Source: Streptomyces sp. RPA4-2
GTDB lineage: Bacteria; Actinomycetota; Actinomycetes; Streptomycetales; Streptomycetaceae
Direction of reading: 5' to 3'
DNA: 64,000 bases
Assembly: GCF_012273515.2 (NCBI RefSeq)
Contig: NZ_CP050975.2
Coordinates: 1,736,001 to 1,800,000 of the forward strand
This document shows, in pieces, positions 51,310 to 62,279 of the stretch. The translations under genes and the position numbers were made by a program. The stretch's first letter is position 1, and every line of letters starts with the position of its first letter. The notes beneath the pieces are model-generated. The model did no database searches. It saw only the letters and a program-made list of their open reading frames with translations, and was not told the origin of the DNA.

Positions 51310-51845
51310 GCGGCATGGGGCGGGTATCTGTCGATTCCCGTAGGTGGGTGCGGCGGCGGGGTACCGGGTGACTTGCGGGGACACGGGAGCCGCATGGAGC
51401 GTGGGTGCACCGGAACCGAGTGGACGGGCGGGGACACCGGAGCCGCGTGCCGCGGGGAGACACGGGAGCCCTGCGACGGGCGGTGCTCAGGGGGCGGTCG
51501 CCCCCGAACGAGGGGGCCGGGAGGCCCGTGCCGTGTGTCGATCTTGGCTCGTTCACGGCCCTCAACCGTTCCCGTCACCGACCTTGACGCCCCCTGGGCA
51601 CCGGTGAACACTTCCGGGTGTCAGTCGGCATCGCCGCATTCGGGCGTCTCCAGGCACCGCGCCGCTCGGGTTCCCGACCTGTTCCAAAGGCCGTCCCCCA
51701 CGGGCGATTCCGCTGCGACGGCACGCTCGTCACGGACGCCGGGCGGGGCGCGGGACCTCCCTGCCCTCGGCTGAAGTGGCCATGGGAAACGCACCCTGCA
51801 CGGTGGCCCGGGGCGGTCCGCTCCGGGCGAGGCCTAGGAGCCGCC
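51310..51845. other. Intergenic region with GGGACACGGGAGCC repeats
   Basis: About 530 bases before glpF without a supported gene. Three degenerate GGGGACACGGGAGCCGC-like units lie near 51377, 51430 and 51455. The later part (about 51540-51640) should contain the glpF promoter, but no clear -35/-10 pair was identified. No GylR-type regulator gene is adjacent. Confidence 0.5.
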
Positions 51846-52586
51846 ATGAGCAACGGCGACATATTCGTCGGCGAGTTGATCGGCACTGCGATTCTGATTC
51901 TGTTCGGCGCGGGCGTCTGCGCCGCTGTCACACTCGACAAGTCCAAGGCGCAGGGCGCCGGCTGGGTCGTCATCGCCTTCGGATGGGGATTCGGCGTGCT
52001 CGCCGGCGCGTACACCGCCGCACCGCTGTCCGGAGGACAGCTCAACCCGGCCGTGACCATCGGTTTCGCCATCGAGGGCACGACCAAGTGGGAGGACGTG
52101 CCCTTCTACGTCCTGGGGCAGTTCGCCGGCGCCGCGATCGGCGCCACTCTCTGCTGGCTGCTCTACCTCGGCCAGTTCAACCTCAACGCGGACGAGGACA
52201 ACGCCATCGAGACGCTGGGCATCTTCTCGACCCGGCCCGAGATCGACAACCCGGTGCAGAACCTCATCACCGAGACCATCGCCACCGCCGGCCTGATGCT
52301 GCCCATTCTGGCCATGGTCGGCGGGCAGAAGCACGTGGCGGGGATCGGCGACGCGGGACTACCGGTGCAGCTCATCGCGTTCCTGGTCGTCGGTATCGGC
52401 CTCTCGCTGGGCGGCCCCACCGGGTACGCCATCAACCCGGCACGCGACCTGGGACCACGCCTCATCCACGCACTGCTGCCGATTCCCAACAAGGGCACCT
52501 CGCAGTGGAGCTACTCCTGGATCCCGGTGGTCGGCCCGATCGCGGGTGCCGCCATCGGGGCCGCGATCTACAACGCAGCCTTCTGA
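51846..52586 (+). CDS. glpF: Glycerol uptake facilitator (MIP/aquaglyceroporin)
   Basis: A 246-residue channel with six membrane helices. Both NPA half-helices are present: QLNPAVTIG and [11 protein letters not shown], the latter followed by Asp as in glycerol facilitators. The opening helix is [20 protein letters not shown]. It brings glycerol into the cell for the kinase encoded next. AGGAG stands 5 bases before the ATG. The gap to glpK is 13 bases, so they form one operon. Confidence 0.95.
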
Positions 52587-52599
52587 CGAAGGGGACGTC

Positions 52600-54120
<1,521 letters not shown>

Positions 54121-54238: not shown

Positions 54239-54844
54239 TCAGGTCGCGACGGGTTCGCGCCGGGCGGCGGTGGTCGCCAGCGCGTGCTGGACGACCTCGA
54301 TGAGGACCTCCTTGGCCGACTCCCGGTCCCGTGCGTCGCACAGGACGAGCGGCACGTCCTCGTCGAGGTCCAGGGCCTGACGCACCTCCTCGACCGGGTG
54401 GCGGGCCACTCCTTCGAAGCAGTTGACCCCCATCACGAACGGAATGGAGCGCCGCTCGAAGTAGTCGACGGCGGCGAAGCAGTCCTCCAGCCGCCGGGTG
54501 TCGGCGAGCACGATCGCACCGAGCGAACCGGTGGCCAGTTCGTCCCACAGGAACCAGAAGCGGTCCTGTCCGGGCGTCCCGAAGAGGTACAGCACCAGGT
54601 CCTCGCGGAGGGTGATGCGGCCGAAGTCCATGGCGACGGTGGTGGTGTTCTTGCCCTCCACACCGCTGGTGTCGTCCACGGGCCGGCCCGCCTCGGTGAG
54701 CACCTCCTCGGTGCGGAGCGGCTTGATCTCACTGACCGCGCCGACCAGGGTCGTCTTGCCCACGCCGAAGCCGCCGGCCACCAGGATCTTGAGCGTGACG
54801 GGCTCGACCGGAGGCTTGCCGCGCTCAGTACGCCCGAAGATCAT
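54239..54844 (-). CDS. cvnD: Conservon small GTPase-like protein CvnD
   Basis: A 201-residue Ras-like GTP-binding protein, fourth member of the conservon. The P-loop is KILVAGGFGVGKTTLVGAVS (about residues 19-38). The G3 region reads LYLFGTPGQDRFWF. The later part has ALDLDEDVPLVLCDARD. CvnD proteins bind and hydrolyse GTP and associate with CvnA-C at the membrane, in a scheme likened to eukaryotic receptor-G protein signalling. The ATG at 54844 overlaps the oxoprolinase stop by ATGA, so it is coupled to that gene rather than to cvnC as usual. AGGAG lies 9 bases upstream. Confidence 0.92.
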   Translation of the reverse strand: MIFGRTERGKPPVEPVTLKILVAGGFGVGKTTLVGAVSEIKPLRTEEVLTEAGRPVDDTSGVEGKNTTTVAMDFGRITLREDLVLYLFGTPGQDRFWFLWDELATGSLGAIVLADTRRLEDCFAAVDYFERRSIPFVMGVNCFEGVARHPVEEVRQALDLDEDVPLVLCDARDRESAKEVLIEVVQHALATTAARREPVAT

Positions 54845-57800
54845 TGGTCTCTACTCCTGCTTGCTGGGGGGTCGTGCGGCGGTGGGCCGTAGCCTCCGCC
54901 GCCGGGGGTTTCGATGACGAGTACGTCGCCGGGGCCGACATCCGTCGTAGCACTTCCGCCAAGTTCGGTGACCGTGCCGTCGGCGCGCTCCACCCGGCCC
55001 GCCCCGAGTGCCCCCGGCCCGCCGCCCGCCATGCCGTAGGGCGGCATCCGGCGGTGCTGGGAGAGCGTGGAGACGGTCATCGGCTCGAGGAAACGGATCC
55101 GGCGCACGGCGCCGTCCCCGCCGTTCCAGCGTCCCCGGCCTCCGCTGCCGTGCCGGACCGCGAACTCGTCGAGCCGGACCGGCAGCCGCCATTCCAGCAC
55201 CTCGGGGTCGGTGAGCCGCGAGTTGGTCATGTGGGTCTGCACGACGGACGCGCCGGGGAAGCCGTCCCCGGCGCCCGATCCGGAGGCCACGGTCTCGTAG
55301 TACTGGCAGCGCTCATTGCCGAACGTGACGTTGTTCATCGTGCCGGAGCCCTCGGCCTGTACACCCAGGGCTCCGTACAGCGCTCCGGTGATCGCCTGGG
55401 ACGTCTCCACGTTGCCGGCGACCACGGCGGCCGGGGGCTCCGGGGCGAGCATCGAGCCGGGCGGCACCACGATGTCCAAAGGACGCAGGCAGCCTTCGTT
55501 GAGCGGGATGTCGTCGTCGACCAGGGTGCGGAAGACGTACAGGACCGCGGCGTCGACCACGGAGAGGGGCGCGTTGAAGTTGGTGGTGAGCTGCGCGGAC
55601 GTACCCGTGAAGTCGATGGTCGCGGAGCGCTCGCGGCGGTCCACCCGCACGCTGACCCGGATGACGGCCCCCGAGTCGGTCTCGTAGGCGAACTCGCCGT
55701 CCTCCAGGGCGTCGATGACGCGTCGCACGGCTTCCTCGGCATTGTCCTGCACATGGCGCATATAGGCCTGTACGACGTCGAACCCGAAGTCCTCGATCAT
55801 GCGGGCGACTTCGTCCACGCCCTTCTGGTTGGCGGCGATCTGGGCGCGCAGGTCGGCGAGGTTGGTCTCCGGATCGCGCGAGGGGTAGGGCGCCTCGGTG
55901 AGCAGGGCCCGTGTCTCCGGCTCGCGGAACCGGCCGTTCTCGGCGAGCAGCCAGTTGTCGAACAGGACGCCTTCCTCGTCGATGGTGCGGCTGTCCGCGG
56001 GCATGGAACCCGGCGCGATGCCGCCGATCTCGGCGTGGTGGCCGCGTGAGGCGACGTAGAAGAGGATCCGGTCACCCTCCGTGTCGAACACCGGGGTGAT
56101 CACGGTGACGTCCGGCAGGTGGGTACCACCGTGGTACGGGTCGTTGACCGCGTACGTGTCGCCGGGCCGCATGCTGTCGCCGCGCCGCCGGACGACCTCC
56201 TGCACGCTGGTGCCCATGGAGCCCAAGTGCACCGGGATGTGGGGTGCGTTGGCCACCAGGCTGCCGTCGGGGTCGAAGAGGGCGCAGGAGAAGTCCAGGC
56301 GCTCCTTGATGTTGACCGACTGGGCGGTGGACTCCAGGCGGGCGCCCATCTGCTCGGCGATGGACATGAAGAGGTTGTTGAAGACCTCCAGGAGGACCGG
56401 GTCCGCTTCCGTGCCGAGATCGGAACTCTGCGTGACCGCCACGCGTTCCATGAGCAGATGCCCGTCGTCGGTCGCCGCGGCCCGCCAGCCGTCGTCGACG
56501 ACGGTCGTCGCGCTGGACTCCGTGATGATCGCGGGTCCGGTGACGGTCTGCCCGGGGGGCAGTTGCTCGCGGCGGTGCAGGGGCACGTCGCGACGGGCAC
56601 CCCCGGTGTGGAGGCTGACCGTCTCCCGGCGCACCGGGGGCGGACGAGGGGGTGACGAGGGCGGAGAGATCGGGGGGTTCGGTGAGACCGGTGGCTTCCA
56701 CGGACAGGGCTTCCACGACGACCGGACGATCGAGGGTGAAGGAGTAGGTGGCGCGATGGAGTTCTTCGAAGGCCCGGGTCATGGCGTCGGGCCGCGTCAG
56801 CTCGACGGTGAGCGCCGTGTCCGTGCCGTCGTAGCGGAGTTGGGCGCGGCGGGTGACGCGGATGCGGTGCCCCGGCACGTCCTCGGCGAGGAGTTCGGCA
56901 CGCGCCGCGCCCTCCAGGTCGTCGGCGGTCTTGAGCACGCCGGGCATCGAGGAGAGCTCCAGGGGTGCCTCCACGGACTGCTCGCGCATGGCCGTGGTGT
57001 CGGCCAGCCCGATGCCGAGGGCGGAGAGGACACCGGCCATGGGCGGCACGAGGACCGTGCGGATGCCGAGCGAGTCGGCCACCATGCACGCGTGCTGACC
57101 GCCCGCGCCGCCGAAGGTGGTGAGTGCGTACCGGGTGACGTCGTGGCCCTTCTGGACCGAGATCCGCTTGACGGCGTTGGCGATGTTGGCCACGGCGATC
57201 TGCAGGTATCCCTCGGCCACCTGCTCCGGGGTGCGGTCGTCGCCGGTCTTCTCGCGGATCTCGCGCGCGAGAGCGGCGAACCGGCCGCGGACGAGGGTGT
57301 CGTCGAGGGCCTGGTCGCCGTCGGGGCCGAACACCTGGGGGAAGTACGCGGGCTGGATGCGGCCGAGCACCACATTGGCGTCGGTGACCGTGAGCGGGCC
57401 GCCACCGCGGTAGGAGGCGGGTCCTGGAGTGGCGCCGGCCGAGTCGGGTCCCACGCGGTAGCGGGAGCCGTCGAAGTGAAGCACCGAGCCGCCCCCGGCG
57501 GCGACGGTGTGGATGTCCAGCATGGGCGCGCGCAGCCGGACCCCGGCGATCCGCGTGGTGAAGACGCGTTCGTACTCGCCCGCGAAGTGCGAGACGTCCG
57601 TGGAGGTGCCGCCCATGTCGAAGCCGATGACGCGGTCGAAGCCGGCGAGCTGCGACATCCGGGCCATGCCGACGATGCCGCCCGCGGGCCCGGACAGGAC
57701 GGCGTCCTTGCCGCGGAACTGGCCGGCTTCGGTGAGTCCTCCGTTGGACTGCATGAACATCAGCCGCACGCCGCGGAGTTCGTCGGCGACATGCTGGACG

Positions 57801-58459
57801 TAGCGGCGCAGCACCGGCGACAGGTACGCGTCCACGACCGCCGTGTCGCCCCGCGGGACCAGCCTCATCAACGGGCTGACCTCGCTGGAGAGCGAGATCT
57901 GCGGGAATCCGACCGTGGCCGCGAGTTCGCCGACGGCCTGTTCGTGGGTGGGGTGGAGGTGACTGTGCATGCAGACGACGGCGACGGCGCGGATGCCGGA
58001 GTCGTACGCCTCCTGGAGGGGCACGGCGAGGGCGTCGAGGTCGGGGGCGCGCAGGACGGTGCCGTCGGCGGCGATCCGCTCGTCGACCTCGACCACGCGC
58101 TCGTACAGCAGCTCGGGCAGTTCGATGGCGCGGGCGAAGATGCGGGGGCGGTTCTGGTAGGCGATGCGCAGGGCGTCCCGGAAGCCGCGGGTGATGACGA
58201 GAAGGGTGCGTTCTCCCTTGCGTTCCAGGAGGGCGTTGGTGGCGACGGTGGTGCCCATGCGGACGGCGTCGACGGGCGTGTCCTGGGGATCCCGGCCGTC
58301 GTCGCCAAGGAGTTGGCGTACGCCCGCTACCGCCGCGTCGGTGTACCGGGCGGGATTGTCGGACAGCAGTTTGTGCGTGAGCAGACGGCCGTCCGGGCGT
58401 CGCGCGACGATGTCGGTGAAAGTGCCGCCCCGGTCGACCCAGAACTGCCAGCCAGTCAC
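54841..58459 (-). pseudogene. Full-length 5-oxoprolinase (fused HyuA/HyuB), with an apparent single-base frameshift
   Basis: A fused hydantoinase A plus hydantoinase B polypeptide that would open 5-oxoproline to glutamate with ATP. The first part has [36 protein letters not shown] and [12 protein letters not shown]. The second has [33 protein letters not shown] and VIETPGGGGYGPP. The frame of the A part runs past its C-terminus into nonsense, while the true continuation ([20 protein letters not shown], then [14 protein letters not shown]) is in the next frame from 56634. Deleting one G from the G5 run at 56636-56640 joins them into 1205 residues, the usual family length. The GTG at 58459 has GGGGAA before it. 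It lies inside the conservon, coupled to cvnD. Confidence 0.85.
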
Positions 58460-58483
58460 TTTTGTTCCCCGCTTCCGCCCAGC

Positions 58484-58879
58484 TCAGAGCGCTCGGAGGC
58501 CGTTGATCACGTCGCGCAGAATACTCTCGTCCGGCAGCTCGGCCGGGGGTACGGGACGTGTCACATGGACCATTTCCTCGTGCACGAGGTCACCGATCAG
58601 GACCCGTACCACTCCGATGGGCAGGTCGAGCTCGGCGGCGAGTTCGGCGACCGACTGGGGCGTGTCGCGGCAGAGTTCCACGATGTCCACGTGTTCCGGG
58701 GACAGGCTGTGGTCCGCTTCGGGGTCGTCCGCGTGCGGTTCGGCGACGACCACGGCGATCAGGTCGAGGCGATGCTGGGCCGGGCTGGTGGTGCGGCCGC
58801 GCGTCATGGCATAGGGCCGGACCACCGGTCCGGCGTCGTCGTCGAACCAGTGGCTTGTTCCCTGACCGTCTCCGCTCAT
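58484..58879 (-). CDS. cvnC: Conservon protein CvnC (DUF742)
   Basis: A 131-residue DUF742 protein. The N-terminal segment VVRPYAMTRGRTTSP is the family signature. The rest predicts a winged-helix-like fold (VDIVELCRDTPQSVAELAAE, IGVVRVLIGDLVHEEMVHV). CvnC links the sensor CvnA and the roadblock CvnB to the GTPase. It follows cvnB by 9 bases. In most conservons cvnD comes next; here the oxoprolinase gene intervenes with a 24-base gap. Confidence 0.92.
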   Translation of the reverse strand: MSGDGQGTSHWFDDDAGPVVRPYAMTRGRTTSPAQHRLDLIAVVVAEPHADDPEADHSLSPEHVDIVELCRDTPQSVAELAAELDLPIGVVRVLIGDLVHEEMVHVTRPVPPAELPDESILRDVINGLRAL

Positions 58880-58888
58880 GCCATCCCA

Positions 58889-59329
58889 CTACCCGCCGGA
58901 GGGCAGATCGGTGCGCGGAGCGGCGGCCAGATGTGCGCCGACCCGCTTCACCAGGAGTGTCATTTCGTAGGCGACCTGCCCGACGTCGGAGTCGGCGTCC
59001 GAGAACACGGCGAGGCAGCTGCCGTCACCGGCGGCCGTGACGAAGAGGAAGGCGTTCTCGAGTTCGACGACGGTCTGCCGGACGCCGCCCGCCTCGAAGT
59101 GTCGTCCGACCCCCTTGGCCAGGCTGTGGAAGCCGGAGGCGACGGCGGCCAGGTGCTCGCTGTCCTCCCGGGTCAGGTCCTTGGACGCCCCGGTGGGCAG
59201 GCCGTCGCCGGAGAGCACGATCGCCTTGCGGATACTGGCGACGCGGTCCACCAGATCGTCGAGGAGCCAGTTCAGCTCTCCCGACGCCGTGCCGGTCTCG
59301 GTGGGCCCTGTTGTCTTCGGCGCGGTCAT
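58889..59329 (-). CDS. cvnB: Conservon roadblock/LC7 protein CvnB
   Basis: A 146-residue roadblock/LC7 protein. The core is ELNWLLDDLVDRVASIRKAI, VLSGDGLPTGASKDL and HLAAVASGFHSLAKGVGRHF, followed by ENAFLFVTAAGDGSCLAVF. Such proteins dimerise and act as GTPase partners. ATG at 59329 overlaps the cvnA stop by 4 bases (ATGA), showing translational coupling. Confidence 0.93.
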   Translation of the reverse strand: MTAPKTTGPTETGTASGELNWLLDDLVDRVASIRKAIVLSGDGLPTGASKDLTREDSEHLAAVASGFHSLAKGVGRHFEAGGVRQTVVELENAFLFVTAAGDGSCLAVFSDADSDVGQVAYEMTLLVKRVGAHLAAAPRTDLPSGG

Positions 59330-62217
59330 CGGCCGTCCCCCTCTGTGGTTCCTGGTGCTGTGCCGTCCTGGGCCTGGTCGCCCACGGCGTTCTCCTCGCG
59401 GCCGCGCCGCCAGCCGCGCTGGAGCGAGGCCATCCGGTTGCGAACCTCTTCGGCGTCACGTTCGGCGGGATCCGGCCCGCGGACCGCGCCGGCCCCCTCG
59501 CGCTCCCCGCGCCGCTCGGGGCCGTCCTTCAACTGCGGGGCCAGATGGGCCTGCCGGACGCGGCGGGGCAGGGGGCTCGTACCCGGTTCCGCCCCTTCGG
59601 CCGTGGTGTCGGGGCTCGGGCCGGTCCCGGTCGTACCCGGCGGGGACGTGCGACGGGTGCGTCTCGGCAGCGCGGAGGCCGCCTGGTTGGGGCCGGGCGT
59701 CTCGGACCGGGGGCCCGGAACGCCGGAGCGGGGGGTCGCGCCCTGGGCGCGTTCGCCGTTGCGACGCGCGGAGGTGTCGGTGCGTTCGGCGCGCCGGACG
59801 GCCGACGGCTTCGCGCTCTCGCGCTCGGCCAGGCCGGCGACACCGAGCAGTTCCACCGGCTCCAGGCCCTTGGCCGGCTCCGGAGCCTCGGCGGTGCGCT
59901 CGTCCGTCTCGCCGCGCCGGGGCCGTGTCCGGGTCACGGGACGACCGTGCGAGCTGACGAGTTTGGGGGACCTGCGCCGCGGCAGCGGCACCGGGGCGCC
60001 CGGACCGTCGTCACCGGCGCGGGCCGTCTCGTCCTGCCCCTCACGGCCCGGCTGGTGGTGCTCGACCGGTCCGCCGGCGATGGAGCGGCGCGGACCGAAC
60101 AGACCATCCTGCTCGGTGTCCTCGTCGAGGGCGTCCGGGAATCCGCCGAGGGCGTCCAGCTCCACCGGGGCCTCCAGTTCGACCGGGCCGTCCAGGATCG
60201 AGGCGGGCAGACCGGGGAGGCGCACCGGGACCTCGGACAGCGCCGCCTTGCGGTCCGCCTCGACCTTGCCCTCCTTCGAGGGCAGTGTGCGGTCGAGGCG
60301 GAAGCCGATGCCGTTGGTGTCCGGGACGTCGTCCGTGAGCAGCGCGTCGGAGAGGAAGACGATGGCGGTCGTGCCGCCATACGGGGAGGGCTGGAGGGAG
60401 ACGCGTACGTTCTGCCGCTGGGCGAGCCTGCTGACGACGAAAAGACCGAGCCGGTCGGTGTCGGAGAGCTCGAACTCGGGGGTTTCGGCGAGCCGCAGAT
60501 TGGCGTCGAGGAGTGCTTCGGCCGCCATGCCGAGGCCGCGGTCGTGGATCTCCAGGGTGAAGCCGTTGGCGACGCGTTCGCCGATGACCTGCACGGCGGT
60601 GTGCGGGGGCGAGAACACCGTGGCGTTCTCGAGGAGTTCGGCCACGAGGTGGGTGATGTCGGCCACCGCCGGCCCGGTGACGGCGACGCGGGGCAGCCGG
60701 CGCACCTCGATGCGCTCGTAGTCCTCCACCTCGGCGACGGCAGCGCGGACGATGTCCATGAGCTGAACGGGCTTGCGCCACTGCCGGGAGGGGGCGGCGC
60801 CGGAGAGGATGACGAGCCCCTCGGCGTGCCGGCGCATACGCGTGGTCAGGTGGTCCAGGCGGAACAGGTCGGCGAGTTCGTCGGTGTCCTCGGTCCTGCG
60901 TTCCATGGTGTCGAGGAGGGTGAGCTGTTTGTGGAGCAGGACCTGGCTGCGGCGGGCGAGGTTGACGAAGACCTCGGAGACACCGTCGCGGAGTTCGGAC
61001 TGCTTGACCGCGGCCTCGACAGCGGCGCGCTGGAGGGTGTTGAGGGCCTGGCCGACCTCGCCGATCTCGTTCCTGTCGTACTCCAGGCGCGGTGCTTCGG
61101 TCTCGACGTCGACCTGTTCACCCGCCGAGAGCCGGCGCATCACGCTGGGCAGCCGGACGCCGGAGGCCTCGTGGGCCTCCAGACGCAGTCGGCCCAGGTC
61201 GCGGATGAGGCTCCGGCCGATGCGGACGGACATGATGAGCGAGACCAGCACGGCGACGAGCCCGAGGACGCCCGCGATGGCCGCCTTGACGACGACTCCC
61301 GTGGCCACGGGCCGGATCCGGTCGTGGTAGCGGTCGGTCGCCCTGTTGTCGAGGTCGCCGAGTTCGTCGAGCACATGGCCGGCGGCCCGGTCCCAGCTCT
61401 TCGCGGTGACGCCGTGGGGCGAACCGGCCGGGGAGGTGACGACGGCTTGCTCGGCGACACGCAGGGGCGCCGTGTCGGCGTTCTTCCAGTAGCTCTCGTA
61501 GCGCTCGCTCTCCGAGTCGGGCAGCAGCGGCAGACTGACGTCGTAGAGCAGCGTGCGCTGGGCCACGAGATCGGAGATGTCACGGATGTCGTCACCGGTG
61601 ACGCGGCCCGCGACCAGCGCGGAGCCGAGGAGGGCGTCCTCGCGGGAGAGCAGCTCGCGCGCGATGTCGATGTTGACGAGGGCGCGGCCCTGCTTGTCCA
61701 TCTCGACGTTGTCGACGAGATGGAGGTTGGAGACCAGGGTGTAGCAGGGGTCGACGAGACGGTTGTAGAGGTCGAGGGCCTGGGCCCGGTCGACGGTGCC
61801 CTCCTCGACGCTGCGGCGCAGCGAGTCGATGCCGTCGAGGGCGTCCAGCATGATGGTGAGGCGCTCCGCGGTGCCCGCGCCCATCTCCTCGGCCATGCCG
61901 TCACTCTTGGCGTTCCCGCGGACCTTCGCCACGGCCCGGTCGGTGGCGCTCCGGCTGTGCCGCAGCGCCGCGAGCGCGTCGGACGCGCGGGGATCGGCGA
62001 GATAGACGAGGGTCTGGCGGCGCTCCTGCTGGAGGACGCCGACGGCGTCCTCGGTGGGGTAGCCGATCTTCTCGACGACGTCGGACACGTGGAACAACTG
62101 GTTCGCCTCGCGCCCGGTGATGACCGTCGCGAAGGCCCAGATACCCGTCAGGGAGAGGAGTGGCACGAGGAGCAGCGCCACGATCTTCCGGCGGATGGAC
62201 TTCCCGCGAAAGCGCAT
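59326..62217 (-). CDS. cvnA: Conservon sensor-kinase-like protein CvnA
   Basis: A 963-residue membrane protein. Membrane helix 1 (about 12-34, IVALLLVPLLSLTGIWAFAT) is followed by an extracytoplasmic nitrate/nitrite-sensor-type helical domain. Helix 2 (about 302-327, AAIAGVLGLVAVLVSLIMSV) is followed by a HAMP linker. The histidine-kinase-type ATPase domain has HLVAELLENATVFSPPHT (N box, about 525) and EIHDRGLGMAAEALLDANLR (G1, about 557). No canonical phosphorylatable H-box is evident. The last 280 residues are a Pro/Arg-rich disordered tail. ATG at 62217 has GGGGGAGG just before it. A TAGGCT -10 box lies at 62280-62285. Confidence 0.92.
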   Translation of the reverse strand: MRFRGKSIRRKIVALLLVPLLSLTGIWAFATVITGREANQLFHVSDVVEKIGYPTEDAVGVLQQERRQTLVYLADPRASDALAALRHSRSATDRAVAKVRGNAKSDGMAEEMGAGTAERLTIMLDALDGIDSLRRSVEEGTVDRAQALDLYNRLVDPCYTLVSNLHLVDNVEMDKQGRALVNIDIARELLSREDALLGSALVAGRVTGDDIRDISDLVAQRTLLYDVSLPLLPDSESERYESYWKNADTAPLRVAEQAVVTSPAGSPHGVTAKSWDRAAGHVLDELGDLDNRATDRYHDRIRPVATGVVVKAAIAGVLGLVAVLVSLIMSVRIGRSLIRDLGRLRLEAHEASGVRLPSVMRRLSAGEQVDVETEAPRLEYDRNEIGEVGQALNTLQRAAVEAAVKQSELRDGVSEVFVNLARRSQVLLHKQLTLLDTMERRTEDTDELADLFRLDHLTTRMRRHAEGLVILSGAAPSRQWRKPVQLMDIVRAAVAEVEDYERIEVRRLPRVAVTGPAVADITHLVAELLENATVFSPPHTAVQVIGERVANGFTLEIHDRGLGMAAEALLDANLRLAETPEFELSDTDRLGLFVVSRLAQRQNVRVSLQPSPYGGTTAIVFLSDALLTDDVPDTNGIGFRLDRTLPSKEGKVEADRKAALSEVPVRLPGLPASILDGPVELEAPVELDALGGFPDALDEDTEQDGLFGPRRSIAGGPVEHHQPGREGQDETARAGDDGPGAPVPLPRRRSPKLVSSHGRPVTRTRPRRGETDERTAEAPEPAKGLEPVELLGVAGLAERESAKPSAVRRAERTDTSARRNGERAQGATPRSGVPGPRSETPGPNQAASALPRRTRRTSPPGTTGTGPSPDTTAEGAEPGTSPLPRRVRQAHLAPQLKDGPERRGEREGAGAVRGPDPAERDAEEVRNRMASLQRGWRRGREENAVGDQAQDGTAPGTTEGDGR

Positions 62218-62279
62218 GGCCTCCCCCAGCTCGGCCCCCTCCGGCCCGGGGGCACACCTGTGCGTCAACAAACGGCGTG

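Follow-up and report, generated by a model that had tools for sequence, protein, structure and literature searches.

Why should a gene for a 5-oxoprolinase lie inside a conservon, between cvnC and cvnD? The question is raised by a stretch of 64,000 nucleotides (nt) from Streptomyces sp. RPA4-2 (contig NZ_CP050975.2, positions 1,736,001 to 1,800,000), referred to here as the window. On its minus strand, open reading frames and Pfam matches place cvnA, cvnB, cvnC, the oxoprolinase and cvnD in that order between positions 54239 and 62217, an arrangement and location already given by an earlier reading made from the sequence alone (the sequence-only reading). That reading also raised the possibility that the enzyme is wired to the G-protein-like signalling complex that a conservon encodes. 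The comparison of relatives presented here favours another answer. The gene is very probably an ordinary 5-oxoprolinase that entered the operon once, probably rides in it and has been lost repeatedly; we regard it as a metabolic lodger rather than a component of the signalling complex because it disappeared many times from conservons that themselves persisted and because it is split in the window.

Gene order and distribution

All four components of a conservon are present in the window, on the minus strand. The cvnA gene (59326–62217) encodes a sensor kinase-like protein with NIT (2.1e-44, 153 bits) and HATPase_c (4.7e-08) domains, the Pfam scan having used an upstream start (59326–62271). 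The cvnB gene (58889–59329) encodes a Roadblock/LC7 protein (Robl_LC7, 1.9e-26), cvnC (58484–58879) a DUF742 protein (8.3e-39) and cvnD (54239–54844) a small GTPase. The Pfam match of CvnD, PF03029 (9.2e-35), is ATP_bind_1, and the reading as a GTPase draws also on conservon order and on the usual composition of conservons. The oxoprolinase starts at a GTG codon 24 nt past the cvnC stop, the distance that had been described. In the other 10 conservons of this genome cvnD comes next after cvnC, with gaps between the hits of −4 to 309 nt. A phylum sample gave cvnD within 1.5 kb of cvnC in 18 of 20 newly fetched loci above the family cut-off and no cvnD in the other two, 8 loci under that cut-off being excluded.

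Two conservon-like loci of another family (L244 and L264) have no cvnD within 1.5 kb of cvnC. Loss of cvnD from some conservons is mentioned in PMC4316618. In PMC13343842, cvnD is scored only if it lies three genes from cvnA; the window conservon falls outside this rule, under which insert-bearing operons would presumably be miscounted.

Among 199 genomes of the genus, a HyuB match at a threshold of 1e-50 was found in 137. The identity, as read off the match list, is about 80% or more in 60 of these, and 59 of the 60 (58 fetched loci and the window) lie between cvnC and cvnD, giving the cvnC-oxoprolinase-cvnD order in 59 of the 199 genomes; the remaining match, in genome G103, lies elsewhere. 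Of the best 80 of 588 named loci, which overlap in genomes with the genus sample, 33 have the full order (S. diastatochromogenes, S. antibioticus, S. actuosus and S. coacervatus among them), 2 more are truncated at the end of a contig and 45 lie outside conservons. The survey for the same insertion that had been suggested thus shows that the arrangement is not the oddity of one strain. One of the 45 outside loci, L198 of Amycolatopsis sp. GM8, has its oxoprolinase about 2.5 kb from another conservon and divergent from it, the sole such case among them.

Classification of the locus, which covers 112 of the 199 genomes, distinguishes three states. Type A loci have the insert (58 fetched and the window), type B loci are the same conservon without it (29 fetched, first 21 and then 8 more) and type C loci (n = 20) were picked for an oxoprolinase located 8–14 kb upstream. 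Four loci, L227, L232, L233 and L234, show the same overlap between the cvnC and cvnD hits as type C. The insert is gone from 29 of the 88 classified clade members, with the conservon retained.

Probable entry and loss at the cvnC/cvnD junction

Pieces of oxoprolinase sequence are present at 12 of the 29 type B junctions (E of 1e-3 or better), the longest of them in L225. Base-shuffled gaps from 27 junctions, used as a control, gave a mean of 0.25 remnant matches; two gaps longer than 1000 nt (L104 and L109, both among the twelve) were not shuffled. Remnants seen by eye in L101, L108, L110 and L118 fell below the threshold and are not counted. An ancestral empty site is rejected for the twelve by their remnants, and it is unlikely for the other type B loci because the 21 that were tested share a derived junction.

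The features of that junction are as follows. In every one of the 20 outgroup loci of type C, cvnC shares 20 nt with cvnD, so that cvnD starts inside cvnC, and an ATG and a GAGGT lie within the cvnC end at the cvnD start in all 20; the presence of this GAGGT rules out an outgroup cvnD that has no ribosome site. The corresponding position in the window is the end of cvnC at 58484–58516. The GAGGT is missing from the cvnC end in 58 of 58 type A loci and in 21 of 21 type B loci tested, and the commonest type A and type B sequences replace the ATG of type C by ACG or GCG. All 58 type A loci and 20 of the 21 type B loci tested have an SD-like (Shine-Dalgarno-like) motif no more than 20 nt from cvnD, and in the window AGGAG at 54854–54858, within the end of the insert, is the likely ribosome site of cvnD. 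The former cvnC/cvnD overlap would have been the point of insertion, with cvnD gaining a new ribosome site at the end of the insert.

A tree of CvnA to CvnD from 80 rows, built by a quick method, places type C on one side of a branch with a support of 100 in the Shimodaira-Hasegawa-like approximate likelihood ratio test (SH-aLRT). The deepest rows on the other side carry the insert, and its presence or absence needs 13 changes over the 80 rows. Parsimony alone cannot give the direction of these changes, which comes from the remnants and junction features; from these we infer one entry and about a dozen losses. A HyuB tree of 98 rows (32 in-conservon), likewise built by a quick method, groups the in-conservon copies with copies from Streptantibioticus, Kitasatospora and a few Streptomyces and separates them from the type C copies that lie upstream. 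Derivation of the in-conservon gene from the upstream copy of other Streptomyces is rejected on the ground that the two lie in separate parts of this tree. The in-conservon label needs 2 changes there because the basal set mixes one type A row, the displaced copy of G103 and a Nocardia copy.

We propose that a fused, ATP-dependent, eukaryotic-type 5-oxoprolinase (HyuA plus HyuB) entered one conservon on a single occasion, in the common ancestor of a large clade of Streptomyces. The target would have been the conservon that has a NIT-type CvnA and adjoins glpF-glpK; these two genes are convergent with cvnD in the window (51618–54120, plus strand) and adjoin it in many relatives too. The insert would afterwards have been lost many times with the conservon kept, and its frame would have become split in the genome of the window.

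The spacing within the operon bears on how closely the insert is tied to its neighbours. Among the 58 relatives, the insert overlaps cvnD by 20 nt in 52, by 4 nt in one and not at all in five. The ATGA overlap from which coupling to cvnD had been suggested is present in the window, but it is atypical beside the 20-nt overlap of the relatives. The matching stretch begins 24–33 nt past cvnC in 47 of the 58 and 72–3911 nt past it in the other 11. Between cvnC and cvnD of the window, consensus scans found no promoter-like or terminator-like site, which is a weak test in Streptomyces. Membership of the operon, as the sequence-only reading had it, is favoured by the tight same-strand spacing and the frequent 20-nt overlap and is likely for the window; the 11 relatives with a wide gap do not share this spacing.

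A stronger form of coupling can be considered, in which ribosomes finishing the oxoprolinase set the output of CvnD and the insertion re-tuned CvnD relative to CvnC. The 20-nt overlap of the 52 inserts with cvnD is like that of cvnC in the 20 outgroup loci, and the initiation site of cvnD has been replaced; both observations speak for such coupling. It nevertheless appears quite improbable, given that cvnD is preceded by its own SD-like site and that the insert-free type B relatives retain cvnD despite having no cvnC/cvnD overlap (gaps from 13 nt up).

The split frame, the predicted enzyme and the signalling proposal

The oxoprolinase had been taken for a single intact gene. In the window it is split, its HyuA and HyuB domains lying in two different, overlapping frames. 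The first frame (56072–58459, 795 amino acids) holds the HyuA-type half, with Hydant_A_N and Hydantoinase_A matches, and the second (54841–56634, 597 amino acids) covers the last part of the HyuA C-terminal domain together with the HyuB-type half, which has a Hydantoinase_B match. Alignment with seven relatives puts the change of frame at approximately 56634–56690, in a variable linker. The longest open frame from cvnC to cvnD is 819 codons in the window, compared with 1213–1309 codons in 57 of the 58 fetched relatives; the remaining relative, L049, is also split and has a longest frame of 816 codons. HyuA and HyuB in a single chain, a mark of the eukaryotic-type 5-oxoprolinase, are therefore not found in the window copy. 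The tail of this copy has a second length difference relative to the intact relative L039, and it is this difference that produces the ATGA end with cvnD.

Amino-acid and silent changes private to the window were counted and compared with those of six near relatives pooled, with one-sided p values. The ratio is 15:17 in the HyuB half of the window and 25:79 in the relatives (p 0.013), 14:30 and 47:77 in the HyuA half (p 0.82), and 29:47 and 72:156 in both halves together (p 0.18). For cvnA the ratios are 13:20 and 51:74, and for cvnD they are 5:10 and 4:27, an apparent tilt like that of the HyuB half. Proof of decay of the window copy by an amino-acid excess is rejected, since the HyuB half alone supports it and cvnD tilts similarly. 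The frameshift may instead be an assembly error, the gene being intact in the living strain, as the open frames of all four cvn genes, the lack of a significant excess in the HyuA half and in both halves together, and the tilt of cvnD would allow. We give this explanation a substantial but minority weight, against which stand the further length difference in the gene's tail, the excess in its HyuB half, the split in L049 and the remnants in other genomes, these last being evidence that decay of the gene does occur at this site.

The intact protein of L039 matches, over residues 7–1201, a solved chain of 1288 amino acids with the molecule name N-methylhydantoinase (E 3e-147). Weaker matches are to 6yra chains (named 5-oxoprolinase, hydantoinase) and to acetone and acetophenone carboxylases, and those of the closest 120 proteins that bear a name are called hydantoinase B/oxoprolinase or 5-oxoprolinase. 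In G103 the oxoprolinase gene comes after pxpA, pxpB and pxpC, with a pyroglutamyl peptidase gene (pcp) nearby. The insert resembles the eukaryotic-type ATP-dependent 5-oxoprolinase (OPLAH/OXP1), in a hydantoinase/oxoprolinase superfamily shared with the CapAB caprolactamase, in that HyuA and HyuB are fused in relatives (about 1220 amino acids) and in that the phosphate motifs DxGGTxTD and DxGGT, named as in PMC8453981, are recognizable by eye in the HyuA half of the window copy. The window copy differs in having two frames, in being lodged in a signalling operon and in having a predicted substrate. Homology and context point to 5-oxoproline as that substrate, and a metabolic role is the simplest reading of the insert. 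Most likely the oxoprolinase shares a transcript with the conservon; it would convert 5-oxoproline to glutamate.

The same reaction is predicted for PxpABC, which PMC13274462 describes as the usual bacterial 5-oxoprolinase, the eukaryotic type being rarer. The pxpABC genes adjoin the homologue of the insert in G103, but the protein families are unrelated to those of the insert. In the genome of the window, pxpA (C1:1824374) is found some 30 kb away from the insert, and the single Hydantoinase_A match is the insert itself. A pxpA match is absent from 26 genomes of the genus sample (20 listed and 6 missing from the match list). A HyuB gene is present in 23 of these 26, compared with 114 of the 173 that have pxpA (one-sided Fisher p 0.014, kinship ignored); restricting the sample to the 194 genomes within quality limits gives 22 of 23 and 113 of 171 (p 0.0017, kinship again ignored). 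Of the three genomes that have neither HyuB nor pxpA, two are 78% and 81% complete. The one-contig genome G136 (locus L115) has no HyuB match at 1e-50 and no pxpA match. Judged by pxpA alone, PxpABC probably does the same task as the insert in most of these species.

The proposed wiring of the enzyme to the G-protein-like complex is not supported, the analysis having found no evidence for it. The conservon persists without the insert in a third of the classified clade, the state of the locus changes 13 times on the tree, the enzyme is found away from conservons in 45 of the best 80 named loci and beside pxpABC in G103, and the window copy is split. The closest known systems are the conservons that have cvnE (P450) or cvnF (GAF), which likewise consist of a cvnA-D operon and a fifth gene on the same strand; in PMC8510531, GAF genes go with conservons 7 and 8, and conservons 9 to 12 have P450 genes. 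According to PMC13343842, cvnE and cvnF come after cvnD, their products occur overwhelmingly, as a tendency, with CvnA proteins that have no sensory domains, and CvnF8 stimulates the CvnA8 kinase. The oxoprolinase, by contrast, is a metabolic enzyme rather than a P450 or GAF protein, is flanked by cvnC and cvnD, has frequently been lost in the clade and accompanies a CvnA that has the extracellular sensory NIT domain. A true accessory component like CvnE or CvnF, binding CvnA or CvnD so that turnover of 5-oxoproline and glutamate feeds the GTPase switch, would agree with a position conserved in 59 genomes of the genus and has a precedent in the action of CvnF8 on its kinase. In view of the differences in position and partner, the relatives that keep the conservon and not the gene, and the copies that are displaced or split, we consider it very unlikely. 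In the open-access literature, a scope that leaves out subscription journals, no paper joins a conservon with an oxoprolinase or hydantoinase, and the insert was not found in passages of PMC3123327, PMC2374992 and PMC4316618.

Several points weigh against an oxoprolinase that is only a lodger in the operon. The substrate is assigned by homology and context, and the best PDB match bears the name N-methylhydantoinase. No remnant is detected at E 1e-3 in 17 of the 29 insert-free junctions, so that loss at these is deduced from junction features, which were tested on 21 of the 29. Constraint on the insert in the six near relatives is about equal to that on cvnA (47:77 and 25:79 compared with 51:74); together with the open frame in 57 of 58 relatives, this suggests that the insert matters to most of its hosts, and its position in the operon has long been maintained in a large clade. 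The 72–3911 nt gap in 11 relatives leaves room for a promoter belonging to the insert, which is possible there and makes co-transcription less sure in those strains. Finally, the frameshift in the window may represent real decay or an assembly error.

Second cargo, neighbouring genes and implications

Five fetched loci (L060, L064, which is partial, L078, L104 and L109) contain a cassette on the opposite strand that separates cvnC from the oxoprolinase or from what is left of it. Its genes, with families taken from L104, are for a thioesterase, an L-carnitine dehydrogenase-like protein, a BKACE-family enzyme and an IclR regulator. None of the four proteins reaches the NCBIfam cut-off of a named enzyme, and the carnitine reading is for this reason a lead. 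Gaps matching the border sequence of the cassette occur in L047, L056, L057, L065, L067, L081 and L085; seven of the 11 relatives with a wide gap share sequence with the stretch between the regulator gene of the cassette and the oxoprolinase. A search of the window's genome for the cassette thioesterase gave no match and, having no positive control, shows little. The cvnC/cvnD junction could be a lasting cargo site for nitrogen-compound catabolic genes, namely the 5-oxoprolinase and, in five loci, a carnitine-type cassette, the first entry having rewired the translation of CvnD and put metabolism and signalling on a single transcript. We hold this to be doubtful. The cassette, being on the other strand, cannot share the conservon transcript as a coding message.

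Genes of other kinds adjoin some of the conservons. Between pxpA and the conservon lie a JetA3-like gene in L270 (3556–5073; about 1819555–1821072 on C1 of the window's genome) and a JetC3-like gene in L119 (9517–14214), both assigned to Wadjet-type defence by PADLOC; two proteins neighbouring the Wadjet-like genes gave no hit. Upstream of the conservon in L271 (8815–13630; about 1808800–1813600 on C1 of the window's genome) are genes for an aldehyde dehydrogenase, an amino-acid permease and a GMC oxidoreductase, which, judging by their families, may possibly form a choline/betaine locus.

The arrangement shows that a metabolic gene can break into the core of a conserved signalling operon without destroying it. 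The likely steps, namely entry, a re-made translation start, decay and a remnant, are visible among living relatives. A survey that requires cvnD to be the third gene after cvnA would record these operons as having no GTPase. If it is true that the output of CvnD changed as the insert was gained and lost, these relatives would provide a natural comparative set for the dosage of CvnC relative to CvnD.

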